Assembly: GCA_009797885.1 (NCBI GenBank)
Contig: WNKP01000008.1
Span: forward strand, 124,001-188,000
DNA length: 64,000 nucleotides
Origin: Flavobacteriaceae bacterium GF1
Lineage (GTDB): Bacteria > Bacteroidota > Bacteroidia > Flavobacteriales > Flavobacteriaceae
Direction of reading: 5' to 3'
In this document: positions 58,048 to 60,588 of the stretch, piece after piece
How the letters are laid out: every line of letters begins with the position of its first letter
How positions within the stretch are numbered: position 1 is the stretch's first letter
Notes under the pieces: generated by a model
Database searches by the model: none
Told to the model about the DNA's origin: nothing
Seen by the model: the letters and a program-made list of their open reading frames with translations, nothing else
Program-made: the position numbers and the translations under genes

Positions 58048-60588
58048 ATGCAATCCGGTGTTCTTCATACTCCTTTGGTTTATCTAAAAGGTGTTGGCCC
58101 CAACAGGGCCGAAACCTTAAAGGCGGAACTGGGATTGGAGACCTTTGGCGACCTGCTCCAACTTTATCCCAATCGATATCTGGACAAAACCCAATACTAT
58201 AAGATCGACCAACTAAAGGATAGTGGTGCGGATGTTCAGATCGTAGGCAAAATTGTCCACGTAAAGACCATAGAACAAAAACGGGGCAAACGCCTGGAAG
58301 CCTCTTTTGTGGATGGCACCGGGGAAATGAAATTAGTATGGTTTCGATCCCAAAAATGGATTCGGGAAAATCTTAAGATCAACGAACCCTATGTGGTTTT
58401 TGGTCGAATCAATCGATACGGCAGTGCTTTTTCCATGCCCCATCCCGAAATGGAATTGCTCAAAGACCACCAGGCCGGACTTAAGATTGGCATGCAGCCC
58501 ATTTACCCGTCTACGGAAAAGTTAAGCGCCAAGGGCATTACCAATCGGGCCGTAAGCAAAATGGTACAGCAGCTCTTTTTGGAAACCAAGGCCAATTTCG
58601 CAGAGACCCTATCAAAAAGTCTAATTGAGGAATTTAAACTAATGGCGAAAGCCGATGCCCTTTTGAACATTCATTTTCCAAAAAGTCAGGAGTTGTTAGC
58701 CAAGGCCCAGTTTCGGCTAAAATTTGAGGAACTATTTTTCATTCAGCTCCAATTGCTATCCAAAAAAGCAGCGCGGAAAAAGAAAATCAAAGGCTTACCT
58801 TTTACCGAGGTGGGGGAAAAATTCAATGATTTCTTCAAAAACCACCTTCCCTTCGAATTGACCAATGCCCAAAAACGGGTCATCAAGGAAATTCGAAACG
58901 ATATGGGTAGCTCAGCCCAAATGAACCGGCTTTTGCAGGGGGATGTGGGTTCGGGCAAGACCATTGTTGCCCTAATGTGTATGCTTTTGGCCATTGATAA
59001 CGGCTTTCAGGCCTGTCTAATGGCCCCCACTGAAATTTTGGCGCAACAGCACTACAATGGCCTCAAGGATCTGTTGGGCAAAATGGATTTAAAGATTGCC
59101 TTGCTCACAGGTTCAACCAAACGGGCGGAACGCACTTTTTTGCACAATCAATTGGAAAATGGGAATCTAAATATTTTGGTGGGCACCCATGCCGTTTTGG
59201 AAGATAAGGTTCACTTTAAAAATTTGGGATTGGCCATTATTGATGAGCAACATCGTTTTGGTGTGGCACAACGGTCCAAATTATGGCACAAAGGCAGCCC
59301 ACCCCAAATCCCTCCCAAAGGGAGGGTGGCCGAAATCCATCACAAATACCAAACAGCGAGACCTTCTGCCTATAAGATGTTAAAAGAACTTCAACGGGAG
59401 CGGAAAAAACATACCACGGAAGCCGAGCGCATTCTTTGGGAGCAATTAAAGACCAAACAACTTGGAATAAAGTTTAGAAGGCAACATATTATTGATGAGT
59501 TTATCGTCGATTTTGTTTGTCTACCCAAAAAATTGATTGTTGAAGTGGATGGCGGATACCATGGCACTCCGTCTCAAAAAGAAGCTGATACCATACGAAC
59601 GAAGATTTTGAATGAATTTGGGTACAAAGTTATACGGTTTACCAACGAAGAAGTAATCGGAGCTATCGGCACCGTTCTCAAAAAAATAGAGGACGAATTA
59701 AATAACCTCCCCTTGGGGGAGGAAGGAGGGGCGGTCCCTCCACATATCTTGGTCATGACCGCAACTCCCATTCCACGGACATTGGCCATGAGTCTGTACG
59801 GAGACCTGGACATTTCCGTGATTGATGAACTACCGCCAGGGCGTAAATCCATTAAAACGGTACACCGCTTTGATACCAATCGATTAAAGGTATTTGGATT
59901 CATTAAGGATGAGATTAAGAAAGGCCGTCAGATTTATATTGTATATCCATTGATTCAAGAAAGTGAGGCTTTGGATTACAAAGATTTAATGGATGGCTAT
60001 GAAAGCATTGTCAGGGAGTTCCCGACTCCAGATTATCAAATTTCCATTGTTCACGGGCAGATGAAACCACAGGACAAGGATTATGAAATGGAACGGTTTG
60101 TAAAAGGGGAAACCCAGATTATGGTGGCAACCACCGTGATTGAAGTGGGTGTAAACGTACCCAACGCTTCCGTTATGATCATAGAAAGTGCCGAACGTTT
60201 TGGTTTATCCCAACTCCACCAGTTACGCGGACGTGTAGGAAGGGGTGCGGAACAGAGCTATTGCATCTTAATGACCAGTTATAAACTTTCTGAAGATGCC
60301 AAAACCCGTTTGGAAACCATGTGCAAGACCAATGACGGTTTTGAAATTGCGGAAGTGGATTTAAGACTACGTGGCCCAGGCGACCTTATGGGCACGCAAC
60401 AAAGCGGATTGTTAAACCTAAAAATTGCCGATATCGTAAAGGATAACCCCATTTTAAAAACAGCGAGGTATTGTGCAATCCAAACCCTGAAAAATGACCC
60501 TAAATTGGAAAAAGGGGAAAATTTACCCATTCGAAGGGCGTATGCCGAACTGGTCAAGGATAAGGTCATTTGGGGATACATCAGTTAA
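58048..60588 (+). CDS. recG: ATP-dependent DNA helicase RecG with an in-frame DUF559 endonuclease insert
   Basis: An 846-residue RecG, the helicase that regresses stalled forks and resolves Holliday junctions. The wedge domain, the Walker A GDVGSGKT (~298-305), motif II DEQH (399-402) and the C-terminal motifs (TATPIPRT at 571, QLRGRVGRG) are all intact. Between DEQHRFGVAQRSKLWHKGS and PPHILVMTATP lie ~146 extra residues (418-563), a full DUF559 nuclease domain. Family members are ~700 residues, and 846 minus 146 is 700, so the insert is clean. The frame is kept through it, so the protein may be made as a helicase-nuclease chimera. No intein end residues are seen. Confidence 0.96.
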   Translation: MQSGVLHTPLVYLKGVGPNRAETLKAELGLETFGDLLQLYPNRYLDKTQYYKIDQLKDSGADVQIVGKIVHVKTIEQKRGKRLEASFVDGTGEMKLVWFRSQKWIRENLKINEPYVVFGRINRYGSAFSMPHPEMELLKDHQAGLKIGMQPIYPSTEKLSAKGITNRAVSKMVQQLFLETKANFAETLSKSLIEEFKLMAKADALLNIHFPKSQELLAKAQFRLKFEELFFIQLQLLSKKAARKKKIKGLPFTEVGEKFNDFFKNHLPFELTNAQKRVIKEIRNDMGSSAQMNRLLQGDVGSGKTIVALMCMLLAIDNGFQACLMAPTEILAQQHYNGLKDLLGKMDLKIALLTGSTKRAERTFLHNQLENGNLNILVGTHAVLEDKVHFKNLGLAIIDEQHRFGVAQRSKLWHKGSPPQIPPKGRVAEIHHKYQTARPSAYKMLKELQRERKKHTTEAERILWEQLKTKQLGIKFRRQHIIDEFIVDFVCLPKKLIVEVDGGYHGTPSQKEADTIRTKILNEFGYKVIRFTNEEVIGAIGTVLKKIEDELNNLPLGEEGGAVPPHILVMTATPIPRTLAMSLYGDLDISVIDELPPGRKSIKTVHRFDTNRLKVFGFIKDEIKKGRQIYIVYPLIQESEALDYKDLMDGYESIVREFPTPDYQISIVHGQMKPQDKDYEMERFVKGETQIMVATTVIEVGVNVPNASVMIIESAERFGLSQLHQLRGRVGRGAEQSYCILMTSYKLSEDAKTRLETMCKTNDGFEIAEVDLRLRGPGDLMGTQQSGLLNLKIADIVKDNPILKTARYCAIQTLKNDPKLEKGENLPIRRAYAELVKDKVIWGYIS
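59299..59736 (+). mobile_element. DUF559 endonuclease-coding mobile insert in recG
   Basis: About 438 bases (146 codons) encode HHKYQTARPSAYKMLKELQR, then TTEAERILWEQLKTKQLG, FRRQHIIDEFIVDFVC (Asp488) and KLIVEVDGGYH (Glu499, Asp501), followed by KVIRFTNEEVIGAIGTVL. This is the DUF559 fold, related to Vsr/PD-(D/E)XK nucleases; the catalytic Asp and Glu are kept. The ends are GC-rich hairpins: CCCTCCC AAA GGGAGGG (59310-59326) on the left and CCTCCCC TTG GGGGAGG (59706-59722) on the right. The left end and the right end read on the other strand are similar (CCACCCC ... and CCGCCCC ... each then a hairpin), as terminal inverted repeats. Boundaries are +/-15 bases. A PPQI/PPHI pair may be a remnant of target duplication. 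Confidence 0.8.

Follow-up and report, generated by a model that had tools for sequence, protein, structure and literature searches.

The recG gene of Flavobacteriaceae bacterium GF1 carries an in-frame cassette that encodes a DUF559 nuclease domain between two inverted, GC-rich hairpin ends. The gene lies in a stretch of 64,000 nucleotides (nt) (assembly GCA_009797885.1, contig WNKP01000008.1, forward-strand positions 124,001 to 188,000), the whole of which is called the window here and to which the coordinates refer. From sequence comparison, it is well supported for RecG that the cassette is a discrete unit moving between lineages, and the same mobility is likely for the other host genes in which relatives occur. 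We infer that the movement is driven by the cassette's own nuclease, either through homing-type repair or through transposition of the hairpin ends. These observations are probably best explained by a homing-type selfish mobile element that is bounded by hairpins and free of splicing. The features are as follows.

58048..60588, + strand: recG coding sequence with the in-frame insert, 846 amino acids (aa) (open reading frame listing, Pfam, alignment).
58048..59292, + strand: N-terminal part of the host recG, ending ...DEQHRFGVAQRSKLWHK, with the wedge and helicase motifs I-II (Pfam, comparison with empty alleles, that is, alleles without the nuclease).
59293..59736, + strand: inserted cassette, 444 nt, where genome G007 of the same genus has 9 nt (comparison with G007).
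59296..59326, + strand: left end of the cassette, the AGCCCACCCC arm and the hairpin CCCTCCC-AAA-GGGAGGG at 59310-59326 (sequence; statistics over 77 RecG inserts).
59383..59700, + strand: DUF559 (EDxHD/Vsr-like PD-(D/E)XK) nuclease domain with E460, D488, E499, D501, H505 and D514 (Pfam, alignment, profile and fold matches).
59706..59732, + strand: right end of the cassette, the hairpin CCTCCCC-TTG-GGGGAGG at 59706-59722 and the outer arm GGAGGGGC (sequence, end-pattern scans).
59737..60588, + strand: C-terminal part of the host recG, from PPHILVMTATPIPRT, motif III onward (Pfam, comparison with empty alleles).

Pfam recognizes the RecG wedge, DEAD, Helicase_C and RecG_dom3_C in the 846-aa protein. 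Its DUF559 match (E 7.4e-32) covers residues 446-551 and falls between the two halves of the helicase. In the alignment the insert is flanked by helicase motif II (D399-E-Q-H402) and motif III (T571-A-T573), which is where the original prediction, made from the letters of the window, had located a DUF559 domain in the RecG core; D488 and E499 also stand where it had put them. In G007, whose RecG is 96% identical, ...RSKLWHK is followed by the 9 nt AATGAAATA and then by PPHILVMTATPIPRT, and the window has 444 nt instead of the nine. The net gain is 435 nt, or 145 codons, and 701 aa remain without the insert. The predicted in-frame gain thus holds, and the sizes given for it (438 bases, 146 codons, 700 residues) were off by one codon. 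G002, which belongs to the same genus and is assembled in one contig, also has the insert, at 98% identity, and so do the recG genes of isolate genomes. No intein domain (Pfam) and no intron (Rfam) was found in the window copy; a sub-threshold Rfam match to CRISPR-DR47 (E 0.12) was judged to be due to chance. From the DNA, the predicted product is an 846-aa helicase-nuclease chimera. Filled-allele RecG is under purifying selection (median omega, the nonsynonymous to synonymous ratio, 0.077 in 88 pairs), and the N-terminal part of RecG in empty alleles gives an omega of 0.046 (4 pairs only).

Beyond the original prediction, the analysis brought out a homology to homing endonucleases, terminal hairpins and recurrence in other genes. 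In the window copy the insert matches only DUF559-type families in Pfam, and no others such as Y1 HUH transposase. The model of the domain (predicted local distance difference test, pLDDT, 84; predicted template modeling score, pTM, 0.78) matches in Foldseek 3hrl, an endonuclease-like protein of Neisseria (E 3.3e-7), and 3r3p, the homing endonuclease I-Bth0305I (E 5.5e-5), and weakly Vsr (1cw0/1vsr, E 0.09-0.11). A profile search alone finds 3hrl at E 1.4e-27 and 3r3p at E 2.2e-7. One published study places a DUF559 gene in the EDxHD family (PMC9403480, in excerpt). The spacing of E460-D488-D501-H505-D514 is 28/13/4/9, against 29/13/4/5 in the Caulobacter DUF559 protein VsrA (PMC12907096, in excerpt). 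Both the profile and the modelled fold make the domain a homologue of the EDxHD homing endonuclease I-Bth0305I, and its catalysis is predicted. The predicted catalytic residues E460, D488, E499, D501, H505 and D514 are kept in 76, 77, 76, 76, 76 and 74 of the 77 RecG inserts, a set from which the partial duplicates L254 and L258 and the partial RecGs L183, L192 and L204 are left out. The nuclease is under purifying selection, since the omega of the insert is low: the median is 0.10 in pairs with host synonymous divergence (dS) below 0.6, and 0.14, with a maximum of 0.46, in the 65 pairs whose inserts have a proportion of synonymous differences (pS) below 0.5. An open frame by itself is no proof of such selection, because RecG needs the frame.

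The two ends of the cassette are approximately reverse complements of each other (AGCCC...CTCCC nnn GGGAG). Both hairpins are open in the host frame and encode peptides such as SPPQTPPKGR and LPSGEVGGA. Among the 77 RecG inserts, the left 75 nt contain a perfect hairpin arm of 6 bp or more in 67, the right 75 nt in 68 and both ends in 61, compared with 1/77 for the middle of the insert and 11 of 154 random host windows. Scored as terminal inverted repeats, the ends reach a median of 9 versus 5 in controls, and 24 of the 77 inserts exceed every shuffle. The right arm of the window terminates in GGGGCG, where GGGGCT is the common form. No target-site duplication was seen by eye at the recG site, at which 9 nt are replaced.

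The cassette is rare and patchily distributed. RecG was detected in 383 of 397 family genomes, and the insert in 15 of these, from 15 genera (G000, which is the window's own genome, G381, G290, G396, G340, G158, G094, G280, G165, G016, G252, G196, G346, G370 and G409). Eleven of the 15 genera also have a sampled member without it, in which RecG was matched in two pieces, and the other four are represented by a single sampled genome each; the empty loop itself was read in six of the 11 (g1, g7, g20, g52, g130, g195). A scan of GTDB genomes with an alignment tuned to the RecG-type lineage gave, among the best 80 of 208 confirmed loci, 72 RecG and 8 IleRS loci and no other host. All 72 of these RecG loci have the insert at the same site with the frame kept over the junctions (72/72), and at least six of the 15 filled family genomes are common to both sets. 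On a RecG tree of 118 rows, built with the insert excluded, at least 19 switches between the filled and the empty state are needed, 12 of them forced by well supported branches; this tree omits the partial RecGs and includes the partial duplicates named above.

Empty alleles were read in 42 distinct RecG alleles without the nuclease, which are best family matches and chosen congeners and not a random sample (the duplicates L129, L287 and L290 are excluded, and L028 of G017 was missed by the script pattern used). The site is clean in 36 of the 42, with a 9-nt variable linker that starts AAT or AAC. The remaining six have longer loops of 36-48 nt that start GG, like most filled alleles; four of them (L016, L276, L278, L280) retain right-end remnants such as GGGGAGGTTGGAGGGG, and L032 and L279 do not. 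The four remnant-bearing alleles look like in-frame deletion scars. The mostly clean empties argue against an ancestral insert lost many times. Tolerance of the insert as an extra domain in a variable linker or loop, for which the original prediction had proposed a surface loop, fits both the 9-nt linker and the RecG of T. maritima (1gm5), where the two aligned blocks are separated by three residues. The structure model of the whole chimera (pLDDT 70.5, pTM 0.40) is too weak for claims on the loop.

The ages of insert and host gene were compared by dS and pS over all 2926 pairs of the 77 RecG inserts. An earlier comparison on pairs chosen for unusually alike inserts was biased, and the all-pairs version is used here. 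Among the 16 pairs with host dS below 0.6, the insert/host dS ratio is 0.06-0.64 in 13 and 2.2-2.6 in 3, all three of the latter involving Winogradskyella endarachnes. Ratios that span 0.06 to 2.6 rule out an insert that simply mutates at a lower rate throughout. Three Maribacter pairs have saturated synonymous divergence in the host (pS 0.72-0.77) and an insert dS of 0.12-0.20. In this trio, two members of which are metagenome assemblies, identity at third positions reaches.91-.95 inside the insert. Outside it, the values are.55-.60 for the first 10 codons, taken over the two sides together,.50-.65 at a distance of 10-30 codons and.50-.53 farther away. Low insert/host ratios are also found among isolates, namely Flavobacterium J27, NRK F7 and 9AF, and Tenacibaculum. 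The recG insert of W. endarachnes (L236) has diverged from the inserts of three close congeners much further than its recG has from theirs, as if the insert had been replaced by one of another lineage.

RecG is not the only host. The DUF559 family (PF04480) occurs in 188 of the 397 family genomes and in 222 of 395 genomes of a phylum sample. Sixty DUF559 domains were sorted by host into LeuRS (24), RecG (11), the N-terminus of HemD (9), MetH at site a (9) and site b (2), the C-terminus of HisD (2), IleRS (2) and the N-terminus of RnpA (1). They come from 60 regions, chosen for open frames above about 330 aa among the matches listed, together with G002, G000:C11 and G007, and give no estimate of how frequent in-frame copies are. 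Hosts were assigned mostly by motif, three rows by eye, and one representative per host was tested with NCBIfam/Pfam, which named leucine--tRNA ligase (L083), methionine synthase (L073, L096), isoleucine--tRNA ligase (L118), histidinol dehydrogenase (L085), uroporphyrinogen-III synthase (L075) and ribonuclease P protein (L128). In the Bacteroidota phylum sample, DUF559 is also in frame in HsdR (L328, L330, L335) and in a type ISP/Eco57I-like restriction protein (L321). The cassettes of L330 and L335 stand just before the Walker A stretch of HsdR and that of L328 elsewhere in HsdR; the frame of L323 matches DUF559-type families only. A search of other genes for the same domain, suggested as a check of the original prediction, thus found it in LeuRS, IleRS, MetH, HisD, HemD, RnpA and HsdR.

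In a tree of the 60 domains, the RecG inserts form one group with weak support (90/42) within a clade that includes the IleRS inserts (99/91). The LeuRS inserts have at least two origins by supported branches; for instance, L090 and L097 are 85% identical in the host and 49% in the insert. The domain tree therefore indicates that one site was entered by different lineages and that one lineage entered different sites. In the MetH of G247 (L072), sites a and b are both filled and the two copies are sisters (99/90), an apparent jump within one gene. Clear cases of recent independent transfer are, from the synonymous comparison, restricted to RecG. Taken together, the clean empties, scar-like alleles, patchiness within genera, divergent ages and copies in other genes bear out the proposal of the original prediction that a mobile element entered recG without breaking its frame.

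Palindromes resembling the cassette ends also occur by themselves. In 21 chosen genomes, CTCCCC-N2-5-GGGGAG has 96 forward matches against 3 for the reversed control, with 0-18 palindromes per genome. For the window's own genome, a count with the spacer fixed at 4 showed no enrichment of palindromes (3 forward, 3 control); enrichment emerged in the scans of more genomes, with spacers of 2-5 and with the outer arm. When the outer arm is added to the end pattern, 93 matches (49 on the forward and 44 on the reverse strand) are found against 1 control, in 36 of the 397 genomes. DUF559 is carried by 33 of these 36 genomes and by 155 of the 361 others (Fisher p 6e-9, uncorrected for relatedness), the two genome lists having been matched by hand. 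If three genomes whose sole match is the element's own end are excluded, the count is 30 of 33 (p 5e-8, again uncorrected). Of 20 palindrome loci inspected, 3 have DUF559 nearby, and at least four (L244, L256, L257, L259), in which no outer arm was recognised by eye, may simply be terminators. One locus of G007 (L250, G007:C10:43201) is a nuclease-free copy of about 90 bp that has both ends, lying within a 492-aa frame of a genome whose recG is empty. By eye, solo or short palindromic copies also lie in frame elsewhere in genes that hold a full cassette, namely the MetH of G427 (L073/L130) and a LeuRS (L041).

The following mechanism would account for these results. The element consists of one DUF559/EDxHD (Vsr-like) nuclease open reading frame between two inverted GC-rich hairpin ends, open in the host frame. 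The nuclease would be made as part of the RecG chimera and would cut or nick the uninvaded recG site, and repair from the filled copy would install the cassette, as in homing. The copied tract would stop at or near the cassette ends, perhaps since the hairpins terminate or prime repair. Homing nucleases have been described as free to invade conserved coding sequence through their association with self-splicing introns or inteins (PMC3943268, in excerpt). No intron or intein may be needed here, because the cassette sits in variable linkers that tolerate an extra domain. As to a vector for the cassette, none was obvious in viral contigs (79 loci, best identity 56%), in phages (3 records) or in plasmids (49 records, all below 60% identity).

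Several observations weigh against such a homing-type element. At larger distances the insert/host dS ratio is about 1, and the insert is the younger in only 56 of 88 pairs with host pS below 0.62. The protein identities of insert and host correlate in RecG (rho 0.67, 77 rows), so part of the history of the RecG insert is vertical. No saturated host with a young insert was found among 253 LeuRS and 36 MetH pairs (the LeuRS identity and dS tests omit L093, which holds N, and the MetH dS test omits the rows of site b); for L099/L100, the pS of the insert is.20 and that of the host.40. The consistent co-conversion of flanks that is expected from classical homing was not found in 11 hand-picked pairs. 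Identity in the nearest 10 codons per side is higher than the far background in 7 of them and lower in 4, and only L220/L234, with 20/20 near-flank identity against a background of.79, would fit a short co-converted tract. Under homing, this would mean that the copied tract ends at or near the cassette ends. Moreover, DUF559 is also found outside longer frames, and VsrA is thought to be a mismatch-repair nuclease (PMC12907096, in excerpt).

No description of an in-frame DUF559 cassette was found among the matches listed in searches of openly licensed papers. With EDxHD homing endonucleases (I-Bth0305I, 3r3p) the cassette shares a homologous catalytic domain, a conserved coding target and a patchy presence, and in RecG the fixed site of empty alleles has been entered in different lineages; it differs in having no intron or intein around it, a nuclease fused inside the host protein, hairpin ends and no consistent co-conversion. 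Repetitive extragenic palindromic (REP) elements with RAYT transposases have short hairpin ends, solo copies and an enzyme gene between inverted copies. The cassette resembles them in its hairpin ends, solo copies and flanked enzyme gene. However, the RAYT enzyme is a Y1 HUH transposase, whereas that of the cassette is of the PD-(D/E)XK type and lies in frame inside genes, and its palindromes number 0-18 in each of the 21 genomes. Inteins with homing endonuclease domains sit in frame at fixed sites of conserved genes, with the nuclease in the middle. These traits, given for inteins partly in an excerpt of PMC3943268, are shared by the cassette, which differs in that no splicing domain was found and in its short linker flanks. 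Set beside insertion sequences, the cassette has terminal inverted repeats (24/77 above every shuffle) and no target-site duplication by eye. Vsr and VsrA share the fold, by weak Foldseek matches, and the predicted residues E-D-D-H-D (PMC12907096, in excerpt), yet they are free repair proteins and not cassettes within other genes. The Rickettsia palindromic elements (RPEs) are likewise palindromic mobile DNA, open in frame and tolerated in conserved protein genes. They differ in being 105-146 bp long with no mobilising enzyme known, according to an excerpt of PMC2229807, whereas the cassette has a nuclease reading frame between its palindromic ends and belongs to another phylum. The same 2007 excerpt treats transposase-driven movement of small mobile repeats such as RPEs as a hypothesis without experimental support. 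The cassette departs in a defining feature from each of the known families tested, and it would work most like a homing endonuclease element.

An alternative, which we regard as unlikely but the best of the rivals, is that DUF559 acts as a REP/RAYT-like transposase on the hairpin ends, that the solo and short copies are non-autonomous, and that the fixed sites reflect target preference and survival of in-frame insertions. The inverted hairpin ends in 61 of 77 RecG inserts, the sharp cassette edges, the copies at new sites and the two-ended copy in the 492-aa frame of G007 would all suit a transposon, as would the outer-arm pattern with its 93 matches against 1 control in 397 genomes and its tie to DUF559 (33/36 versus 155/361). 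Against it are the replaced 9 nt in RecG with no target-site duplication by eye, the weak terminal repeats of single copies (24/77 above every shuffle) and an extreme fidelity of site, 80 of 80 named loci lying at two sites (the best 80 of 208, from a search tuned to the lineage).

It is far less probable that the insert is a domesticated or ancestral domain, that is, a useful RecG helicase-nuclease inherited vertically and often lost. Such a domain would agree with the purifying selection on the insert, its conserved predicted active site, the correlated identities of insert and host, and their similar dS at larger distances. However, the insert is present in only 15 of 383 genomes, 36 of the 42 examined empties are clean and unscarred, and its relatives stand in LeuRS, IleRS, MetH, HisD, HemD and RnpA, which have no common function. 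In close pairs the ages of insert and host differ, and from this dS pattern the domesticated domain appears weakened as an explanation. Slightly more improbable again is that the cassette is passive cargo, carried by ordinary recombination of imported recG DNA while its nuclease serves repair, defence or the like. Copies of DUF559 outside longer frames and within restriction genes would be in agreement with this; recombination of recG would nevertheless bring the flanks along, and in the Maribacter trio the identity falls at the cassette edges. An artefact of sequencing or assembly, or removal of the insert at the RNA or protein level, which would leave no chimera, is hardly credible given the 72 RecG loci at the same site and the many independent genomes, including isolates and the one-contig G002 (98% identity), the lack of an Rfam intron or intein domain in the window copy, and a frame kept in 72/72, which removal at the RNA level would not require.

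From its sequence features, the homing-type cassette looks like an undescribed kind of mobile element. We propose tentatively, with somewhat more doubt than confidence, that it represents a new autonomous class in Bacteroidota, a hairpin-ended DUF559/EDxHD cassette that survives through translation as an additional domain of essential proteins, travels as a unit between fixed sites and spawns solo and two-ended non-autonomous copies, and that could be the missing type of engine for protein-coding palindromic elements. A repair helicase, aminoacyl-tRNA synthetases and MetH would then each bear a nuclease as an additional domain, with no intron or intein found in the window copy. The cassette pairs a nuclease with in-frame palindromic ends, and the question of how small repeats move becomes testable in culturable flavobacteria. 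Annotation may mistake such genes for meaningful fusions, and wrong repair or tRNA-synthetase functions may be assigned from them.

Searched as DNA against its own genome, the insert matched only itself, so there is no recent copy there. Five DUF559 places are present in this genome, none of them recognised as MetH; in G002, a DUF559 domain lies in a 992-aa frame that is MetH-like by eye (L249, G002:C1:872334). A more divergent DUF559 of the own genome (G000:C11:791174-791491; L004, L128) joins the N-terminus of the RNase P protein in frame (Pfam Ribonuclease_P, E 1.9e-18). A second one (L001 1405-1900, G000:C59:255680-256000) has GC-rich hairpins on its flanks and does not lie within a longer frame; its neighbours are what we take to be a helicase gene and a phosphoesterase gene.

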